NCBI RefSeq assembly: GCF_008831285.2
Contig: NC_045141.1
Coordinates: 3,613,224 to 3,677,223, forward strand
Length of the DNA: 64,000 nt
DNA from: Nymphaea colorata
Lineage: Eukaryota; Streptophyta; Magnoliopsida; Nymphaeales; Nymphaeaceae
Direction of reading: 5' to 3'
Part shown: piece after piece, positions 310 through 63,983 of the stretch
Position numbering within the stretch: position 1 is the stretch's first letter
How the letters are laid out: each line of letters starts with the position of its first letter
Made by a program: the position numbers and the translations under genes
The notes under the pieces: model-generated
Databases searched by the model: none
Seen by the model: the letters and a program-made list of their open reading frames with translations, nothing else
What the model was told of the DNA's origin: nothing

Positions 310-8127
<7,818 letters not shown>

Positions 8128-16241: not shown

Positions 16242-16529
16242 GGAGATGAAGAAGAGAGGAAAATGAAGAAAAAAAGAGATGAAATATTGATTACATACCT
16301 CTAGTGAGAATAGCTTTTGGAAAAATGAACACCCTAGACTGAAGATCCCATTGAGTGAAGCTCCAAGATGATGACTCCAAGAGGGTTGTGGCTTGCTCCA
16401 AGTTGGAGAGGAGTGGAAAGAGAAAGAGGGAGAGAGAAAAAGCTCAAGAGAAACCCTAAGTCTTCAAGTGAGAATACTCTAGGGTTTCTCCCAAGGCCAA
16501 CTCTTGCCCAAGAGGAGGGAAGTGAGGGG

Positions 16530-16537
16530 TATTTATA
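16530..16537 (-). promoter_or_regulatory. Candidate LTR TATA box (TATAAATA)
   Basis: Minus-strand TATAAATA followed by CCCCTCACTTCCC and, further on, AAACCCTAG and pyrimidine-rich tracts. This is typical of an LTR U3/R junction, and it lies about 1.7 kb inside the LTR start at 18208. Confidence 0.45.
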
Positions 16538-16579
16538 GAGGATTTTGGAGCCAAAACCCTAACTTTGAATTTTTTTGAC

Positions 16580-17150
16580 CTAAAAAGACTAAAATCACCC
16601 TCTAAAAGGAGACTTTTTGTCAAAAGGAAAGGCAAATGAGTCATATCCACCCAAAAAGACTAAAATCACCCTCTAAAAGGAGATTTTTTGTCAAAAGAAA
16701 GGACAAATTGGTCTTGTCCACAAAAAAGACTAAAATCACCCTCTAAAAGGAGACTTTTTGTCAAAAGAAAAGACAAATTGATCTTGTCTACCCAAAAAGA
16801 CTAAAATCACCCTTTAAAATGAGACTTTTTGTTAAAAGAAAGGGCAAATTGGTCTTGTCCACCCAAAAAGACTAAAATTACCTTCTAAAAGGAGGTTCTT
16901 TGTAAAAAAGGAGGGGTAAATGGGTCTTGTTTACCAAAAAGGCCAAAATTACCCTATAAAAGGAAGTTCTTTATAAAAAAAGAGGAGCAAATGGGTCTTG
17001 TTTACCAAAAATACCAAAATCAACCTCTAAAAGGAAGTTCTTTATAATAAAGGAGCGGTAAATGGGTCTTGTTTACCAAAAAGACCAAAATCACCCTCTA
17101 AAAAGAGACCTTTTTGTTAAAAGGAATGACAAATGGTTCTCAAATGCTTG
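16580..17150. repeat. Minisatellite, about 8 units of about 70 bp
   Basis: The unit is recognisable by AAAAAGACTAAAATCACC, then CTCTAAAAGGAGACTTTTTG, then a purine stretch and GGTCTTGTC. Copies begin near 16583, 16654, 16724, 16795, 16864, 16935, 17007 and 17078. Units near the 17-kb side are more diverged. It lies in U3 of the LTR-like region, just upstream of the minus-strand TATA at 16530. Confidence 0.88.
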
Positions 17151-49021: not shown

Positions 49022-52000
49022 ATGGCTCCCAGTACCCCAAGGTTGGTGGTGCCCATAGATCCGAAGAAGAAGCCACGGGAACAGAAATTGCCACTCCATA
49101 ACCGCTGGCACCCAAGCATCCCCCCAGTTGCGGACGTTATGACGGGGGAACTGTTCAGGGTTGAGATGGTAGACTGGACTGGGGGCAGCATTGGAGATAA
49201 CGATTCAGCGATGGATGTCAAAAACATAGATCTGTTCACAGTAAGTAGACAATAAACTTGAAAGTTTTCTGTTGCACGGTGTTTGTTGACGACAAAGACT
49301 TGGTGCTGGCCATGGCTCATTGGGGTGTCAGTAGTCATGTGGAACCCCATCCTACTGAAAATGGGATGCCCTTTGTTATCATTTACTGGTGTCCACCACA
49401 GCTGGCGTTTATTGTGCACTAGGTGAGTCAGTCGACCAACACATACTGGCAGGCAGATTCTTCGTCCTGAAAAAGGAAAATGGAAAGCCAACTAGTTATT
49501 GCATTTTCTAATTTGGAATTTTCCGTTACAACATCCTGAAAGAGTTTTATTTTCCCTTGTTGTAGAAAAATTATCTGGTCTGTGGTTATCCGTTATAAAT
49601 ATCTAAGATTTTTTGTTCTAGCTCTTTGGTCTGCAACAGATAGCCATGAAGGAAGTTACCTTCTCGGCTTAAATTTGTACCATTACGACTTAAATTGCAC
49701 CTGTTAATTTTAACACAACTTAAAAAATGCTGGGTATTCATTGTACTGTTTGCAGGGGATGAGCTAGTAAACTATCCACATGAAAGTTCCGTAAGAGTTG
49801 CTCCGTGAGCTCTCTGGTGGTTCTTACAGGTTTAAACTCCCCAAAGAGTATTTGAATCAGTTTCATTTCACCTGATGAATGCACCACTCATTCTTCCTGA
49901 GCCCTTGCAAAATACTTGTGTCTTCCTAGTCAACATTACTAGCATGAATAACCTTATGAAATTTCATTCATGCATAAGTTTACAAATCGTATTTCCTCTG
50001 TTCAAGTGCTATTTGGTATGGAATTTCTTCAGGTACATTATCTTAGTGGCCCATGTAGGGTTATTGATGTGGACGGAATACCGGCCAAGCCCGGTGACAT
50101 TCTTGCCGTAGAAATCTGTGATTTGGGCCCTTTGTCTGGAGATGAGTGGGGCTACACAGGCACATTTGACAGAGAAAACGGTGGAGGCTTCCTAACTGAT
50201 CACTTCCCCTGTGCAACCAAAGCAATTTGGTATTTTGAAGGGATTTATGCACGCTCACCTCATATACCAGGTAGAACGATGTGAATAAAACTCATACACC
50301 TTATGTGATAACAACATATGGCTTAGAAACTTTAGATTTTTTATTTTTAAATAGAAAATAAAAGAGTCTAAAATGGATGTGATATATGTTGAATAAGTTG
50401 TGTTCAATTGTGCATGTCAGGTGTTCGCTTTGCAGGTTTAACTCACCCTGGCATAATCGGCACTGCACCATCGAAGGAACTCCTTGACATATGGAATGAA
50501 AGAGAAAAGGAACTACAAGATAATGGCTTCAATCGTTTGCAATTATGTGATATATTGCACACACGACCACTTGCTAATTTACCAACACTCAAAGGTTGCT
50601 TACTCGGAATGGTAAGATTCTTGCCATTATCCATAGCAAATAACGAGGCAGGTGAAATGTTAACCCTGTTTTGTTTCCCTATTTTGATTGTTTAGCTTTG
50701 TGGTAAATTGTAGCACCTTTACAAACATCTAACACAAATCAAGTAATCTTAACAAACTGGACTAGAAAAACATAATTTGATTGGACAGTATTTATAGATT
50801 CAAATGAAACAAAAGGTCCAACTCTTGTGCACAATAATTTACTGTTTAACAAGTGCTATACTAGGCAGATATGTAAAATAAGACCCCTGTTTCTCTTTCT
50901 GTTCCCTTAGAAAGGCTATAACACTTAGGCCCCATCTGATGCACAAGAAAAACACTGTGCAACGTGGAATTTTTTTCAAGTTTGTACAGTTTTCCGATGC
51001 AGCATCAAACATAGGGAATTTTACCCTGCATTTTTCATTGAATTCAGAAAAATTTTCCACGCAAAAAAGTCGGATCTGACTTTTTTCCATGAAAAATTCT
51101 TCCCTCCGTACATTGATAATTTTACCATGCAAAAAACTTCCTTTGCATCAAACAGGGCCTTAAGAAAAAAAAAAAAAGCAAAAAGGAAACGACAGTCCGT
51201 AAAAGATGAATTTCTTAAGCAAATCAATAAATAAGCCTCAGTGGTGGGCTTTAGGAGCCTTAGCTTAAGCTTGTGTTCAGATCGTTGAGCTGTAAATAGT
51301 TCTCCAAATTTGAGATTAAATGTTAAGTCAGCAACACTTCCAGATGCTGCTTCCTCCCATTGCACGTTTCATGAGGATGATACACTCTTGGCCTTTCTGA
51401 AAATTGAGCAAGCTGGAGCCAAACCCTTGTTTTCGTTGGAAAATCCAGACTTGTCCATATCTTTGGGTCATATTTACCTCCCAAGGTAAATACAAGTATG
51501 GACTAATAGTTAATAAGCCAACATATGTACAAAAAGGCGTACATGTACACATTGAAACACCTCTGTCATGCCAACAGTATCTATTTTAGCATGAAAGCAA
51601 ACAGGTGTTCTACTGCAGCAGACATCACTGTCCTTCATTATTAGAAAAACCTTAAAAAACATGGACCAGTTGTCTCACACATTTCAATGATGGATACTTG
51701 ACATGCACATGAACTGATAAGTACCTATATGCTGTGCAGACCGAAAAGTGCACAGAGAAATATAGCTTATGCCAACCATTTCTATGTTTTCAGTGACTAA
51801 TGCCAGTGCTTTCAACATGGACATTCACCAGTGTGCCTCATGAACTTGATGAATCTCTACAAAGCACATGCTAGACAATCAACCGGCAGAAAGAACCATG
51901 TATAAGTGGCCAATTGAAGTAACTTAACCAAGCAATTCCAGTCAAGGAAGTTAACTGTTCTTTTCTCTTTACATCAACCTGTATAAAACTGTTCTTTTCT

Positions 52001-54343
52001 CTTTACATCAACCTGTATAACACAATTTGGCATTTGGACACAAAAAACTGTCTTCTCATCACTGTGTATCTAACTTCTGTGTTATTTAGCCGTGTTATAC
52101 TGCAGAATTTTACAATATCCTCTCTGGTTGGCAAGTTTGAACAGACCGTCCCTTGTCAGTAGGCACTTTTTGTTACAATGGCCAAACATGAATATTTTTG
52201 TTACTGGAACCCTGCTCTAATATGACTTTTCACAATATTTTGGCACAGAAGCATGAAGAAAAATATCCTTAATGCATTTGTACAGATCAGAGAAGGAACA
52301 AAGGAATGGGAAAAGATTGCACGTGAGGCTGCAAGGACAATACCAGGAAGGGAGAATGGTGGAAACTGTGACATAAAGAATCTCAGCAGGGGTTCAAAAA
52401 TATACCTACCTGTATTTGTCGAAGGAGCGAATCTTAGTATGGGAGACATGCATTTCTCCCAAGGAGATGGTGAAGTTTCTTTTTGTGGGGCAATTGAAAT
52501 GAGTGGATTCTTAGAGTTAAGGTAATTTATTTTATCTTAAAAAGAACACACATGAGATATTCAATAGATGAAGTGGCATTTTATGAAAGCATGCCCTCTT
52601 TTCCAATAATTTACTGTGAGTTCCTACTATATTTCATGTCCGACAGCATATATAAATTTTTCATTATTAAAAAGAGATCAGTAGTTGATATCAATTTGTA
52701 AATCCACGAAAAAATTATCTTTCTTGTTTTCTCGTTCTTGTCACACAAAAAAACATAATTTGACAGTCAAATTTTCTATCTGCACCAGGAGGTACCTCAA
52801 TAAAATGGTCGAGGGCTAAGTATATGTCTCATCTCAAACTTTTGATAGCCAAATGGAAGGAAATAACCCTAGTGACTTTGACCTTAAAAATCTCTGTTAA
52901 GATAGTGCACTTTTTTAGTCCAGCCAAAATGGCATAAACTTATGGTTTAAATATAAGCGCTGTAAATGGAGATGATCCTGAAGACCTGTGAATCCAAAAG
53001 GTCCTCGATGGTCTGTTTGTTTGTGAATTATGACTGCAATATCTCCATATTTTGATAAGCTTGACCCACTTAGATTTTGGTCCAGTACTACAGATTTTCT
53101 TTATTTAAAACAGTAAGTTTAGTATCTTTGTCTCACTAACCTTTGTATGGCAACTTGAGGGTGACAAGTTCTTGTCAGCTGTTTTCTTGTGTAAAGCATA
53201 TCACTGTTTTTGATGCTAAATAACTGAATTTTTGGCATTGTAGATGTGAAATTATAAGGGACGGGATGAGGAAGTATCTCACACCAATGGGTCCAACAAG
53301 ACTTCACGTAAATCCAGTCTTTGAGATTGGTCCAGTTGAACCCAGGTTCTCAGAATGGCTTGTATTTGAAGGTATAAGTGTGGATGAAAGTGGAAAGCAG
53401 CATTACCTTGATGCAACTGTTGCTTATAAGCGAGCTGTTCTCAATGCTATTGACTACCTCTCCAAATTTGGCTACTCGAAAGAGCAGGTTTGCTTTAATT
53501 CATCCAGCTGCAGGCCTAAAAAAAAATGCTACATATGTTCCACTTTGAAGCTTGAAAACTACTATATTACAGTTTGGGATGTGTTTTCCTTACGAATAGA
53601 GCCAAGAACAACATCAAAATAATAAATAAACATGGGATACAAATGAAACACAGAAAACTAGGCAAGTTACCTCAATCTGGAATCAGAAAATTAATGCAAC
53701 ATAGAAACTACTAGCCAGAGCTAATAATAATAACTGCTATAAGTGACGGCCTTGTAAATATCATATAAGCATTATAATATATATCATACAATTACCAGAC
53801 GTAATGAAAATGTAAGAAACAGATTGCATCTTTATGAAATTTAGCAGGTAAGTAGGAGCCGTGTGAATTTGAGCAGGTAAATGAGTAAAATTAACAGGTT
53901 TAGAGGTGATCAACTGTAGCCAGATGAACATTTCTTGTGGAATAATTTCGCATGATATATATATGTTTTCAACCTCTGCTAGTGTTATCTTCTCCTCTCC
54001 TGCTGCCCATGTGAAGGAAGGATCTCAGGGATAGTGGATGCTCCAAATGCCGTGGCTACACTTGCCATACCCATTGCCATATTTGACCAGGTACTTGCTT
54101 CTCCTTCTATGGTAGTTTCTCTTGACTCAATTTCCATTGCATCTGCCTAAACAACATGAGATTTGTGGAATCACTTTGAAGGAAACATGCATATTGACAT
54201 GACTGACTTTATGAATCTTGCAGGATATCCGACCAAGAAAACAAGAGGTGCCTAATGGACCCAAAGTGATGAAGAGGCCTGACGTCCTCAAATGTACTTA
54301 CCATGGAAGCCTTCCAATTACAAGGAACCTGGCCACAGAATGA
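49022..54343 (+). CDS. Formamidase (acetamidase/formamidase family), complete, seven exons
   Basis: Hydrolyses formamide or short amides to the acid and ammonia; probably cytosolic, as no targeting signal is seen. Coding exons: 49022-49240, 50033-50270, 50421-50611, 52286-52521, 53244-53487, 53983-54090, 54224-54343 (stop TGA at 54341). All junctions are GT..AG and phases close exactly: 1356 nt, 451 aa, the usual length of plant formamidases. The start MAPSTPRLVVPID is the family's N-terminus. Landmarks: HYLSGPCRVIDVDG and GGGFLTDHFPCATKA (exon 2), GLTHPGIIGTAP (exon 3), RENGGNCDIKNLSRGS and the signature GDMHFSQGDGEVSFCGAIE (exon 4), NPVFEIGPVEPRFSEW (exon 5), LLLSCCPCEGRISGIVD (exon 6). No stop or frameshift. 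Intron 3 (1674 bp) carries a Tourist-like MITE. Exon 6 begins with Cys where I recall Val in relatives. Confidence 0.96.
50928..51159. mobile_element. Tourist-like MITE (PIF/Harbinger type), 232 bp, in formamidase intron 3
   Basis: Flanked by a TTA target duplication (50925-50927 and 51160-51162). Terminal inverted repeats are GGCCCCATCTGATGCAC and GGCCCTGTTTGATGCAA. The interior holds further inverted copies of TTTTACC..TGCA-type words. TTA/TAA duplication and a GGCC..GATGCA tip are the marks of Tourist MITEs. No coding content. Confidence 0.85.
51953..52020. repeat. 34-bp tandem duplication in formamidase intron 3
   Basis: Two head-to-tail copies beginning AACTGTTCTTTTCTC and ending CAACCTGTATA. 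Confidence 0.93.
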
Positions 54344-58120: not shown

Positions 58121-58125
58121 GAAGA

Positions 58126-58652
58126 TGTTGGATAACGTAATGCGGGCCCTAAATATAACTCAGCTACAAACTCGAATTTATACGGAGAAAATTCAGCAGA
58201 GTCTCGACGTCCAAACTAATACTCAATAAATATTACAAAAGAGGGCCTAAGAAAACTCACCTCGGCTCACGCAGTGAGCTAACACACCCAACGCCCTTGA
58301 AGCTTCAACACTCAAGTTCACGAAGTGAACACACTAGCACTCACCAGCTCACAAAGTGAGCACACACTAAAACTCAACCCAACTCACAACGCTCAACCCA
58401 ACTCACAATTTTTCACACACTCTCACCATGGCCCAACGTCCCTATTTATAGGGAGAGAAAGTCGGTGGATGAAGCTTCCACCGACTTCCACATTTACTTT
58501 TCTTTATTTTATTTAATTATTATTTTTCTTCTTTAATCATTACATAACCACCGACTTAAAATTGAGACTCTCACCGACTTTACAAATGAAGAGGCTACAA
58601 GCCTCTTGAGTCATCTCGACTCTTCCAAGAGAGTCGGTGATGACTCTCTACA
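58126..58652 (-). repeat. 3' LTR of the young Copia, 527 bp
   Basis: Plus strand begins TGTTGGATAACG and ends GACTCTCTACA. TATA box on the minus strand (TATAAATA) at 58450-58443. Differs from the 5' LTR at two sites (the AAAATTCAGC and GGGCCTAAG positions). Confidence 0.97.
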
Positions 58653-61600
58653 ATCTCCCCCTCATTACCGACTCTCTACTTATGATTCTCAACATTCTTC
58701 GAAGTTTTACGAATGTCTGTACTGGTAAGCCATTGGTAAAGATGTCAGCGACTTGATCTTCTGAAGCAATTGGCTGCAACTGAATCTCTCCTTTGAGTAC
58801 CTTCTCTCTAATAAAGTGATGCTCCACCTCTATATGTTTCGTTCGAGCATGGAAGATAGGATTCTCTGCAAGTCTGACTGCACTTTGATTATCGCAGTAG
58901 AGTCTTACTGCATAATCCACGTCTTGTTTAATGTCTTTCAGCAGTCGCATCAACCACACACATTCTTGTGCTGCTTGAGATGCTGCTCTATACTCTGCTT
59001 CGGTTGTAGATAGTGAAACTGTTGGCTGTCTTTTACTACACCATGAAATCGCACCACTTCCAAGACTGAATGTATATCCAGTGGTTGATCTTCGTGTTGA
59101 TAAGTCTCCTGCATAGTCCGCATCACAATGACCAACAACTTGACAAGTTGTCCCTCTTTCATAAAGTATACCAAAGTCAAGAGTTCCTTTGATATACCTT
59201 AATATTCTTTTTACTGCTTCTAGATGTGTCTTCCTTGAAGTTTGCATAAACCTGCTTACAACACCAACTGCATAGGCAATGTCTGGTCTTGATAATGTTA
59301 AGTAGATTAGGCTTCCAACCAGTTGTCGATACATAGTAACATCGTCCACCCTGTCTCCTTCATCAACTCTAAGTTTTGCATTTATCTCAATTGGTGTTGA
59401 GATAGGTTTGCAACTGAGCATACCATACTTACGTAGTAAGTCATGAGCATACTTCTTTTGACTTAAAAATAGTCCTTTAGATTCATAATCAATTTCCAAT
59501 CCAAGGAAGTGTCGCAACTCTCCCAGCTCTTTCATTTCAAATCTCACCGTGAGATGTTCACGAATGAGATTAATTTCTTCATTGTCATCTCTAGTGATAA
59601 TTAAATCATCAACATAAATTAACAAGATAGTAAGTTTCGTACCTCTTGTCTTGATGAAGAGACTTGAATCTGCTGAAGAGACTTGAAATCCACTAAACAC
59701 CAAAAATTCAGCTATTTTCCCATACCATGCTCTTGGTGCTTGTTTCAGTCCATAGAGTGCTTTTCTTAACTTGCAGACGTAGTCTGGCTTGTTTGGAGAT
59801 TTGAATCCTTCAGGTTGCTCCATATAGATTTCATGGTCGCGATCTCCATATAAGAATGCATTTTTCACATCAATTTGCCATAGCTTCCAGGATTTGCTTG
59901 CAGCAATGGCTATCAGAACACGTACGGATGTGATTTTCGCAACAGGACTAAAAGTTTCTTCAAAATCAATATTATACTGCTGAGAAAATCCTCTCGCGAC
60001 TAGTCGAGCCTTATATCTATCAACTGAGCCATCTGTCTTTCTTTTTATTTTGTAAACCCATTTACAAGTAATGGGCTCTACTCCTGCAGGCTTTGGTACG
60101 AGCTCCCAGGTTTCGTTATGCTCCAATGCCTTTATTTCATCTTTCATTGCTGATTGCCACTTTTCAACATCTTTTGCTTCTTCAAAAGAAGCTGGCTCGA
60201 TCTCCCCCATGATGGCACAGTCTGCATCTACATACTTGGGATTTGGTTTTGGTATTCTTGTTGATCTTCATAGTGTCATGGGTGTTTTTTCTGGCTCTTC
60301 AAATTGTGATGGTCTTTCTTCTTCTGCACTTCTTCGTTGGACTGGACTGACTCCAGTTCTCCATGGATCTGCACGTTCTTCTCGTCTTGGACTATGTTCA
60401 GGCATCTGAACTGGCTTCTCTAGTTGTCTTACTTCTATGTCTTCAGACTGAGGCTCTCCTTGATTCATCTCAAACTGTATTTTGTTTTGAATGTCTCTTT
60501 CAAGAACTGGAGAGTCTGGAAGCGTCTTCTTCTCTTCTGACCACCACGATGATGCTTCATCGAAGATGACGTCGCGAGAAACATAAACTTGTCCTGTGCT
60601 AGGATTAGCACATCTCCATCCTTTCCGATATGGGTCATATCCGACAAAGACACACCTCTGTGCCTTTTTGTCGAACTTAGTCTTGTGCTGCTCAGATATA
60701 AAAACATAACAAACACAACCAAATACTCGAAAATAACTCACAGATGACTTCTTTTTATAAAGCATTTCATATGGAGACTTGAAATTAAATCTTGGCATTG
60801 GTAGTCGATTAATTACGTGTACAGCAGTGCTGACACACTCGGCCCAAAATCTTGGTGGCATGTTCTTTGCATGCATCATGCTTCGACACGTTTCTGCTAT
60901 GTGGCGGTTCTTCCGTTCTGCCACTCCATTTTGTTGAGGCGTATAGGCGCATGTAAATTGCCTACGAATACCATGTTGCTTCATGTATGCCATGAACATG
61001 TCTGATGTATATTCGCCACCATTATCGGTTCGTAGGCACTGAATTCTATGCCCAAGTTCATTTTTCACCATCTGGTGAAACTCCTTAAATTTTTCAAGTG
61101 CTTCAGACTTTTCTTTCATAAAATAGACCCAAGTATACCTTGAAAAGTCATCAATAAAAGTGATAAAATACCACTTACCTCCAACTGATGGGTCTGGTAC
61201 TTTGCCGAATACGTCTGAATGCACAAGCTCGAATGGCGCTTTAGCTCTATATTTTGATTCTTTGTATGGCCTCCTGGGCATACTTTATCTGTTCGTACCT
61301 CAAGCTTGGGCAGACCAATCAACTGCCCCTTATTAGACATCTCCCGAAGTTTGTTGTATCCAACATGAGCAAGTCTCTCATGCCAGATATCTGCAGTGTC
61401 ATGCTTCTTTGCTTTGTCAATATATGCTGTTTCTGCTGACAATACATATATTGACTCAACTTTTCTTCCTTCAAACACGGGAGTTCCTTGAACATCTTCG
61501 TCTTTATAAACTTTCACATCATTTGGACCGAACAAAACATAGTGCCCTAAAGCTGTTAGTTGTGGCACAGACAACAAATTTTTTGTCATTCCTAGAACAT

Positions 61601-62792
61601 GGTAAACGTTCCGTAAAATCCGGTCTTTACCGAAGTTGGCTACAACCTCTGCTTCTCCAATATGTGCCACCGGGAGCTTTGTGTTGTTAGCAGTAACAAC
61701 AACTCGATTTCCATCATATTCTTTCATACTTACAAACTTGCTCTCATCACCAGTCATATGATTTGAGCATTCAGAATCAATTATCCAATCAGTTTGATAA
61801 TTGATCTTCTCTTCTTTTTCTTTTACGGGTTTTGTATGAGCGGAATTGCATCTTTCTTGTGTAATATCCTCTTTAACCTCCATTGAGTACAGAAATGATT
61901 TTTTCTGTACAACTTCATTAGCTCCTCCATTTTGCTTACTTGTCATGACTGCATTTCCTTCATTTATTCTGACTCTGCAGTCACGAGCAATATGACCCAA
62001 TTTCCCACATCTAAAACATTTCACTTTTGGTCTCCACTGCTGTGTAGTTTCTCTTGTTTTCTTTTCTATATTTTTCTCTTTCTTTTCAGCAATATTCCTA
62101 CTTGGAGACCGAATGACTGGCTTAGCTGGCCATCGTGATCTCTGACCCTTACTAAATAAAGCTTCCTCATTATTTCCTTTGAGAGAAAGCCCGACCATTT
62201 GCTTCGCTAATGTTTCTTGATTGATCAAGAGATTTTCTAACTCCAACAAAGTTGGTTGAACTGGCCAGCCTTGAACACCAATTATAAAACTACCAAATTC
62301 TGGACGAAGTCCGCGAATAAGTATTCTCCGCATACGGGCCTCACTAATTTTAGACTCAGGGTCGATTTGAGATATCTCTCTACAAATATTTTTAACCTTC
62401 ATAAAATATTCTGCTATCGACATGCTTCCCTGAGTTAATGTAGCTAGATCATTTTCTAATAATTGTAGGCGGGCATCATTAGCTCGAGAAAATAGGGTTG
62501 CAAAAGCATCCCATGCTTCTTTAGGAGTCGTAGCATCTCGTATATGCTCTAATAAATTTTTCTCGATTGATACCTTAATTGCAAATAAAGCTTTTCCTGC
62601 TTTGATCATCCATTTCTTCTTCGCTTCCTCGTCGACAGGAATATTAGTGTCTGATCCCAATACAATCTCCCATAATTCTTGTCCTAGAAAATACGACTCC
62701 GTACAGGATTTCCAATAGCCATAATTACTATTGTTAAGTTTCTCAATATTGTTTAATGCAACCGCTAATGCCGCTATAACTTCAGGATATAT
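58648..62792 (-). pseudogene. Copia gag-pol, nearly full length but broken
   Basis: Gag with a CCHC knuckle (CFRCGKLGHIARDC, about 62020-61975); protease with WIIDSECSNHMTGD, where Glu (codon 61772-61770) replaces the Gly of the D-S-G active-site motif; GAG-pre-integrase, then integrase (HSDVFG, FIDDFSRYTWV, RTDNGGEY, GVAERKNR), RT ([28 protein letters not shown] intact), RNase H ([20 protein letters not shown]). Lesions: the frame near 62792 opens after TAG with no ATG before Gag; a small deletion at about 61264-61283 shifts the frame and removes the second Cys of the HHCC finger; a TGA at 60270-60268 stops the frame before RT. The frame ends with TAG at 58650-58648, three bases inside the 3' LTR, after reading through the polypurine tract. 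Confidence 0.95.
58653..58663 (-). other. Polypurine tract of the young Copia
   Basis: Minus strand GAGGGGGAGAT directly upstream of TG-TGTAGAG at the 3' LTR start; it primes plus-strand DNA synthesis in this family. Confidence 0.85.
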
Positions 62793-62826
62793 CTATTCCA
62801 ATAAATCGGCCCTCGGACAGAACCTC

Positions 62827-62838
62827 GCTCTGATACCA
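62827..62838 (-). other. Primer binding site, initiator Met tRNA type
   Basis: Minus strand TGGTATCAGAGC, two bases inside the 5' LTR end, complementary to the 3' end of plant initiator methionine tRNA as usual for plant Copia. Confidence 0.95.
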
Positions 62839-62840
62839 CT

Positions 62841-63367
62841 TGTTGGATAACGTAATGCGGGCCCTAAATATAACTCAGCTACAAACTCGAATTTATACGG
62901 AGAAAATCCAGCAGAGTCTCGACGTCCAAACTAATACTCAATAAATATTACAAAAGAGGGCTTAAGAAAACTCACCTCGGCTCACGCAGTGAGCTAACAC
63001 ACCCAACGCCCTTGAAGCTTCAACACTCAAGTTCACGAAGTGAACACACTAGCACTCACCAGCTCACAAAGTGAGCACACACTAAAACTCAACCCAACTC
63101 ACAACGCTCAACCCAACTCACAATTTTTCACACACTCTCACCATGGCCCAACGTCCCTATTTATAGGGAGAGAAAGTCGGTGGATGAAGCTTCCACCGAC
63201 TTCCACATTTACTTTTCTTTATTTTATTTAATTATTATTTTTCTTCTTTAATCATTACATAACCACCGACTTAAAATTGAGACTCTCACCGACTTTACAA
63301 ATGAAGAGGCTACAAGCCTCTTGAGTCATCTCGACTCTTCCAAGAGAGTCGGTGATGACTCTCTACA
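62841..63367 (-). repeat. 5' LTR of the young Copia, 527 bp
   Basis: Same length as the 3' LTR with two substitutions. U3 is the right part (63166-63367), TATA at 63165-63158, and R/U5 lies leftward with three short hairpins (see findings). Confidence 0.97.
63158..63353 (-). promoter_or_regulatory. Copia LTR promoter: TATA box plus five ACCGAC (DRE/CRT-type) cores
   Basis: Minus-strand TATAAATA at 63165-63158 in CCCTATAAATAGGG. Within 190 bp upstream, ACCGAC or its complement occurs at 63176-63181, 63195-63200, 63265-63270, 63288-63293 and 63348-63353. Four of the five continue as ACCGACTT, fitting the RCCGACNT site bound by plant CBF/DREB1 factors. The first two form a palindrome, GTCGGTGGA..TCCACCGAC. 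The 3' LTR has the same five sites (58461-58638). Stress induction is inferred, not shown. Confidence 0.6.
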
Positions 63368-63372
63368 GAAGA

Positions 63373-63650
63373 TGCACAGAGGAAGAGCTCGAACATCATT
63401 GCGAGGTCGGTACCCCTGCCATGGCAGATTAAATTGATCGATCATCAGCAGAGCTGAGAGAAAGCTTACAGTGAATCGATAAAAGGAGAGAGCCAGATCG
63501 GTTGGTTTTGTCCCTCTCTGAACTCATCCGAAGAAAGGAATGTCTTCAGTTCCTTCTCTGGTCCATCTCTGGGGAAAAATGGAGATGAGAGAACACCGTG
63601 GCCGGTGGGGCCAGGAGGGAGAGCAGAGATGAGAGGAAGCCACTCAAGAA
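63373..63650. other. Right flank of the Copia insertion
   Basis: GAAGATG on the left continues here as CACAGAGGAAG. Mixed sequence, purine-rich from 63470. No exon or domain recognised. Confidence 0.4.
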
Positions 63651-63983
63651 GGGAGCGTTTGAGTGTGGGAAAAAAAATTGGAGAGAAAGCTAACAGCAGA
63701 ATACCGTCACTGAGAAAGGGAGCGTTGAGTGTGGGAAAAAAATTTGGAGAGGAAGCTAGCAGGAGAATACCGTCACTGAGGAAGGGAGCGTCTGAGAGTG
63801 GGAAAAAAAGATTGGAGAGAAAGCTAACAGCAGAATACCGTCACTGAGAAAGGGAGCGTTGAGTGTGGGAAAAAAATTTGGAGAGGAAGCTAACAGGAGA
63901 ATACCGTCACTGAGGAAGGGAGCGTCTGAGAGTGGGAAAAAAATTTGGAGAGGAAGCTAACAGGAGAATACCGCCGCCTTTGG
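63651..63983. repeat. Tandem array, five units of 66-68 bp in an alternating A-B pattern
   Basis: Units start with GGGAGCG at 63651, 63718, 63784, 63852 and 63918. A-type units have GATTGGAGAGAAAGC or AATTGGAGAGAAAGC and CAGCAGAATACCG; B-type units have TTTGGAGAGGAAGC and CAGGAGAATACCG. The order A-B-A-B plus a mixed fifth unit suggests a duplicated 133-bp dimer. Because 67-bp units break the frame, it is unlikely to be coding. The array may continue past the window. Confidence 0.93.

Follow-up and report, generated by a model that had tools for sequence, protein, structure and literature searches.

The 64,000-nucleotide stretch of the Nymphaea colorata genome analysed here (the window; contig NC_045141.1, C4:3613224-3677223) contains a Copia long terminal repeat (LTR) retrotransposon, which reads on the minus strand, occupies positions 58126-63367 and belongs to a family with an array of ACCGAC cores in the U3 portion of its LTRs. 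The array recurs in diverged copies, keeps its spacing to the TATA box and changes in a pattern like that left by selection, and abscisic acid-responsive elements (ABREs), W-boxes and MYB sites are nearly absent from U3. The cores are predicted DREB-type binding sites, and it is likely that host DREB activators start LTR transcription from them under stress.

Recurrence and motif content of the U3 array

Five ACCGAC cores lie upstream of the TATA box in each LTR of the window element (Table 1). All ten of their coordinates had been reported correctly in an earlier note on this DNA (58461, 58480, 58550, 58573 and 58633, and the same at +4715). In the element sense, from the LTR start to the TATA box, the cores are oriented +, -, -, -, +, and the proximal one precedes the TATA box TATAAATA by 16 bp, start to start. 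Four of the five fit RCCGACNT, as previously claimed, the misfit being the core at 58633 (ACCGACTC). The window minus the element contains six occurrences of ACCGAC or GTCGGT in 58,759 bp, so that about 0.02 would be expected in 190 bp of U3. The five-site cluster is not due to chance; the same had been argued earlier from an expectation of 0.1, a figure that was too high.

Genome-wide searches in the 407.8-Mb assembly returned at least 41 matches to an LTR-edge query (58400-58900), at least 40 to a U3 query, and at least 40 copies with an internal query free of LTR sequence (58760-59300; 41 rows, the last being a second piece of one locus). Among the 40 listed internal-query copies, ACCGAC is present in the U3 of 39, three or more sites (three to six per copy) are found in 30, and 29 have a site 15-18 bp before the TATA box; together, the U3s of these copies hold 138 sites in 6,867 bp. 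LTR identity in 27 two-LTR elements ranges from 99.8% down to 85.4%. A further set of 62 LTRs could be split into U3 and R-U5 after 15 of 77 LTR sequences had been dropped for missing anchors. No U3 among the 62 lacks a site and 58 of the 62 R-U5 portions have none, in a set that overlaps partly with the internal-query copies and leans towards intact U3s because it was partly retrieved with U3 sequence.

For the alignment of U3, 61 loci minus four without anchors gave 57 rows, one locus with a mis-called LTR pair (L018) having been set aside beforehand. The rows represent at most 56 elements, as L044 and L045 come from a single element, one row for each LTR, and some of the aligned copies share flanks. 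Flanking sequence is common to the pairs L034/L035, L038/L041 and L045/L046, which for this reason look like segmental duplicates and not separate insertions. The distal, middle and TATA-proximal sites persist at homologous positions in 44, 45 and 47 rows, respectively; free variation of the sites across family copies, which the earlier note had named as evidence against its proposal, was thus not observed. Of the five sites described there, these three are family-wide and the two at 58480 and 58573 are not. Several dehydration-responsive element/C-repeat (DRE/CRT) cores are therefore kept upstream of the TATA box across copies, which is the feature sought in a DREB-regulated LTR.

Genome-wide, ACCGAC stands 7-11 bases ahead of CCTATAAATAGGG in 92 instances at 65 places (6-kb grouping), and neither the reversed pattern nor a unit with GCCGAC in place of ACCGAC occurs anywhere in the assembly. 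The transition-tolerant form AYYRAC-TATA is found 102 times, which leaves 10 transition variants; such unit counts are biased towards copies whose TATA box is intact. Twenty-seven places have more than one match, with a first spacing of 4.6-4.83 kb in 15, 3.3-3.54 kb in nine, and 374, 1494 and 4338 bp in the remaining three. The spacings of 3.3-3.54 kb indicate that shorter relatives share the promoter. Loci L011 and L012, together with pattern matches, have an LTR spacing of 3.3-3.9 kb against the usual ~4.7-4.8 kb, with the same promoter, and these short-spacing relatives are perhaps non-autonomous derivatives.

ACCGAC occurs 197 times in the 57 aligned U3s, where 20 shuffles average 2.6, and GCCGAC occurs twice. 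The usual context is C-ACCGAC-T, with C before 216 and T after 210 of the 235 sites in the 62-LTR set. The ABRE words ACGTGKC and ACGTG were found in none and one of the 57 U3s, respectively (U3 was scored, R was not), so that U3 lacks the content expected of an LTR responsive to abscisic acid (ABA); the W-box word occurs once and the MYB word ACCWAMC is absent from the same U3s. The heat-shock word GAANNTTC is present 19 times in 18 of the 57 (shuffles: mean 7.4, maximum 11), which is above chance, yet in a minority of copies, and does not amount to conserved heat-shock elements of the ONSEN kind. Heat-shock, ABRE, W-box, ARF and MYB sites were all considered as drivers of U3 and rejected as rare or confined to a minority of the 57.

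Change at the sites within and between elements

The two LTRs of one element drift unconstrained after insertion, and a comparison between elements includes time spent in active lineages. With indels set aside, the 5′ and 3′ LTRs of 19 elements differ at 18 of 525 site positions and at 63 of 2916 other U3 positions; within elements, therefore, change at the sites is no slower than in the rest of U3, which might be expected of CpG positions. Where elements have diverged by 15-20%, change between them amounts to 7.5% at the sites against 17% at other U3 positions, and the ratio of site to other change is 0.54, 0.44 and 0.44 in successive bins across 10-25% divergence. Fitch changes were mapped on a tree made without the site columns (18 site columns against 152 others). 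In the 57 copies, internal and terminal changes number 6/30 in site columns and 293/305 elsewhere (p=1e-4, the p values of these branch-change tests assuming independent changes). Removal of six duplicate or same-element rows leaves 51 rows with 5/29 against 275/321 (p=3e-4), and the internal-query copies, 38 of the 40 being in the alignment, give 6/23 against 201/259. Random triples of six-column blocks are as conserved as the three sites in 0 of 5000 draws from the 57 copies and in 1 of 5000 from the internal-query set. Selection probably holds the DREB-type sites in the U3 promoter. The comparison of change within and between elements suggests that the family requires the motif in order to spread; in the mechanism proposed, the sites would be held because lineages that lose them leave fewer descendants.

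Several observations weigh against a DREB-driven promoter held by selection as the explanation. Copy L062 is without any U3 site, and five of the 40 listed copies have a single one. The copies share ancestry, some of them with common flanks as segmental duplicates. The surplus of site changes seen within elements falls short of significance (p=0.085), the ratio of site to other change is 1.40 and 0.97 between elements of less than 10% divergence and 0.77 at 25-30% (two pairs only), and the internal-query set by itself yields only p=0.019. In conservation, the sites are equalled or exceeded by the blocks GAGTCA (at the LTR start), TATA box and TCCCTA; ranked by fewest internal changes among 165 six-column blocks, the proximal site is 5th, the distal 29th and the middle 33rd. 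Another factor may matter, since TGACTC occurs 85 times and in 55 of the 57 U3s (shuffles 7.3). Finally, the tomato Copia element Rider is described as responsive to drought and ABA but unresponsive to cold in the available part of its description (PMC6762207).

Competing explanations and the proposed promoter

Chance or hitchhiking, whereby a founder carried the motif and the copies just inherit it, would fit the common ancestry of all copies and the drop in site number with LTR age (rho 0.69, 27 elements), which is what passive decay would give. It is nevertheless highly improbable in view of the halved rate of site change between elements at 10-25% divergence, though not within elements, and the near-failure of random block triples to match the sites. 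Conservation of ACCGAC/GTCGGT as the arms of an RNA or DNA hairpin, and not as protein sites, has its own evidence: the predicted fold of U3 plus its internal flank is more stable than that of shuffled sequence (z -5.05), sites in opposite orientation are able to pair, and the distal and middle sites could pair with each other, the commonest pair being kept in 301 of 328 cells. At the proximal inverted repeat, the inner left arm GGTGGA is conserved (one internal change), and an inverted repeat with 15-base arms that mismatch at one position (58629-58643 / 58662-58676), whose outer arm lies in the end of the pol open reading frame (ORF), brackets the polypurine tract; its words are exact in 41 of 52 loci upstream (AGAGTCGGTAATG) and 31 of 52 downstream (AGTCATCACCGACTC). 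The arms of the proximal hairpin, however, are unequally conserved, with the left-arm GTCGGT in 16 and the right-arm ACCGAC in 47 of 57 copies, the outer pairing is disrupted in 38 of 56, and compensatory changes amount to a single cell per stem in the two stems examined. Pairing of the whole proximal hairpin is thus not what is kept, and an RNA hairpin, assessed through arm counts, folding and compensation, is insufficient as the cause of conservation at this site. We consider the structural explanation improbable overall; the distal site could in addition be constrained by the inverted repeat that flanks the polypurine tract.

If the sites are bound by protein, the factor might be a different AP2/ERF, an ARF, an R2R3-MYB or a bZIP, with developmental or constitutive expression in place of a stress response. 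Several AP2/ERF proteins share the CCGAC core, and the widespread TGACTC is a word that we take to be bZIP/GCN4-like. ARF proteins want TGTCGG; read on the opposite strand, GTCGG is preceded by A at 210 of 235 sites, and TGTCGG occurs only five times in the 57 U3s. A MYB is opposed both by the absence of ACCWAMC and by the CpG, which MYB does not need and which is nevertheless held. Binding by one of these other factors is, on balance, doubtful. An element inducible by cold and driven mainly by CBF/DREB1, a narrower form of what the earlier note had called plausible, is consistent with the fit of four window sites to RCCGACNT, which has 127 matches in 54 of the 57 U3s, with the naming of a cold-responsive citrus family, Tcs, in the excerpts of one report (PMC6762207), and with the binding of apple MdCBF2 to GCCGACTT of an LTR element in an electrophoretic mobility shift assay, as excerpted from another (PMC6445120). 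It seems unlikely, however, given the near-exclusion of GCCGAC from the 57 U3s and its absence from the TATA unit genome-wide, and given that Rider has a CBF site yet no cold response. According to the available part of a review, DREB2A prefers ACCGAC and DREB1A takes A/GCCGACNT (PMC4625044), so that almost exclusive use of ACCGAC is as compatible with DREB2 as with CBF and does not point to cold in particular. DREB-type promoter sites, the other half of the earlier proposal, stand as the best account of the array, and the cold-specific half is not supported in the form given.

Under the DREB explanation preferred here, the U3 array would be a set of predicted DREB-type binding sites with the core ACCGAC in the usual context given above, laid out in most copies as a first site 15-18 bp ahead of the TATA box, a second at the start of the LTR and a third between them, to which extra sites come and go. 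Under dehydration, salt, heat or cold, the sites would most probably be occupied by host DREB-type AP2/ERF activators (DREB2 and/or DREB1/CBF), which would then start transcription at the LTR. The array suggests that the family relies on host DREB stress regulators. A bolder version, which we hold tentatively and with less than even confidence, is that a family whose LTR ages put its divergence at millions of years has made its promoter depend almost entirely on the DREB regulon of the host, as an ABA-independent stress sensor that seeded at least 65 DREB-responsive promoters genome-wide; independence of ABA is proposed because the unit never occurs with GCCGAC and U3 has no ABRE. If stress induction is true, the family would link DREB signalling to insertion bursts and would have supplied the genome with many candidate stress-responsive promoters.

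In the excerpts available of the reports cited here, comparable systems are described in tomato, apple, maize and Arabidopsis. The LTR of Rider, like that of the present family, has several dehydration-responsive elements and a CBF site, enriched across copies (PMC6762207). Unlike the U3 considered here (ABRE in 0/57; R not scored), Rider has an ABRE-like element and a CE3 in R and is responsive to drought and ABA (PMC6762207); the comparison is one of cis-elements. The apple element redTE at MdMYB1 is likewise an LTR element with a DREB/CBF core, but it has one, GCCGACTT, against the three to six of most listed copies here, in a family without the GCCGAC-TATA unit (PMC6445120). Maize transposable elements tied to cold, heat and salt response resemble the family in being enriched for A/GCCGACNT; sites were counted over consensus elements, and the excerpts describe no fixed promoter architecture (PMC4287451). 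The heat-induced Arabidopsis Copia element ONSEN follows the same logic of a host stress factor acting on an LTR motif array, with heat-shock sequences in the role of the motif, whereas GAANNTTC is limited here to 18 of 57 U3s (PMC6762207, supplemented by general knowledge of ONSEN). These excerpts base the case for stress motifs in LTRs on their presence and enrichment. The idea of such motifs is already known from Rider, apple and maize, and the contribution of the present analysis is the comparative conservation of the cis-elements. Literature searches on DRE/CBF sites in LTRs, which could not be targeted by family name, returned no mention of this Copia family.

Structure and surroundings of the window element

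The window element has the paired TG...CA LTRs, target site duplication, Copia-type gag and RVT_2 of a Ty1/Copia element, with integrase upstream of reverse transcriptase as this group requires. Its minus-strand reading follows from the position of the TATA box on that strand (58450-58443). A primer binding site at 62827..62838 (minus strand) presumably corresponds to the complement of initiator tRNA-Met. The LTRs differ only at 58193 and 58247 (2/527 bp), both outside U3, in agreement with the two differences counted earlier, and this suggests an insertion age of roughly 0.15-0.3 million years at the substitution rates that we assume. The copy is broken as assembled, since the gag and integrase frames differ and an in-frame stop at 60268-60270 splits the integrase ORF from the reverse transcriptase ORF; it thus lacks the intact ORF of an autonomous element, a feature on which membership of Ty1/Copia by sequence does not depend. 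Downstream of the TATA box, both LTRs have a 33-bp tandem repeat (58318-58389 and 63033-63104), and this region contains small palindromes of the TCACTTTGTGA type.

Table 1. Coordinates of the Copia element and its ACCGAC cores in the window; copy counts refer to the 57 aligned U3s.
Feature	Position	Strand	Remarks
Target site duplication GAAGA, left copy	58121..58125		5 bp
3′ LTR	58126..58652	-	527 bp, TG...CA
TATA box TATAAATA of 3′ LTR	58443..58450	-	Second copy in 5′ LTR at 63158-63165
TATA-proximal ACCGAC	58461..58466	-	47/57 copies
ACCGAC, left arm of proximal inverted repeat	58480..58485	+	16/57 copies
Middle ACCGAC	58550..58555	+	45/57 copies
ACCGAC of part of the family	58573..58578	+	25/57 copies; gap in 28/57
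Distal ACCGAC near LTR start	58633..58638	-	44/57 copies
ORF: reverse transcriptase RVT_2 and 3′ end of pol	58648..60267	-	Pfam
Polypurine tract	58653..58663	-	GAGGGGGAGAT in element sense
Sixth ACCGAC, internal	58667..58672	+	Just outside 3′ LTR, end of pol ORF
ORF, other frame: integrase core and SH3-like domain	60268..61284	-	Pfam; ends in stop
ORF: gag, zinc knuckle, Pol beta-barrel domain, GAG-pre-integrase	61116..62792	-	Pfam
5′ LTR	62841..63367	-	527 bp; 2 differences from 3′ LTR
Five matching ACCGAC cores of 5′ LTR	63176..63353		At 63176, 63195, 63265, 63288 and 63348
Target site duplication GAAGA, right copy	63368..63372		5 bp

An Rfam scan of the window gave no matches. A tandem array with 66/134-bp periods (63641-63973) starts ~270 bp from the insertion, and an array of 71-bp direct repeats is found at 16511-17147, where 141-nt windows are 60-90% alike to a reference copy. 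A second Copia reverse-transcriptase fragment lies on the minus strand at 4726-5316 (RVT_2, 6e-41). An acetamidase/formamidase gene is represented on the plus strand by exon-like ORFs over 49952-53622, ~4.5 kb away from the element, with PF03069 in all four of the pieces.

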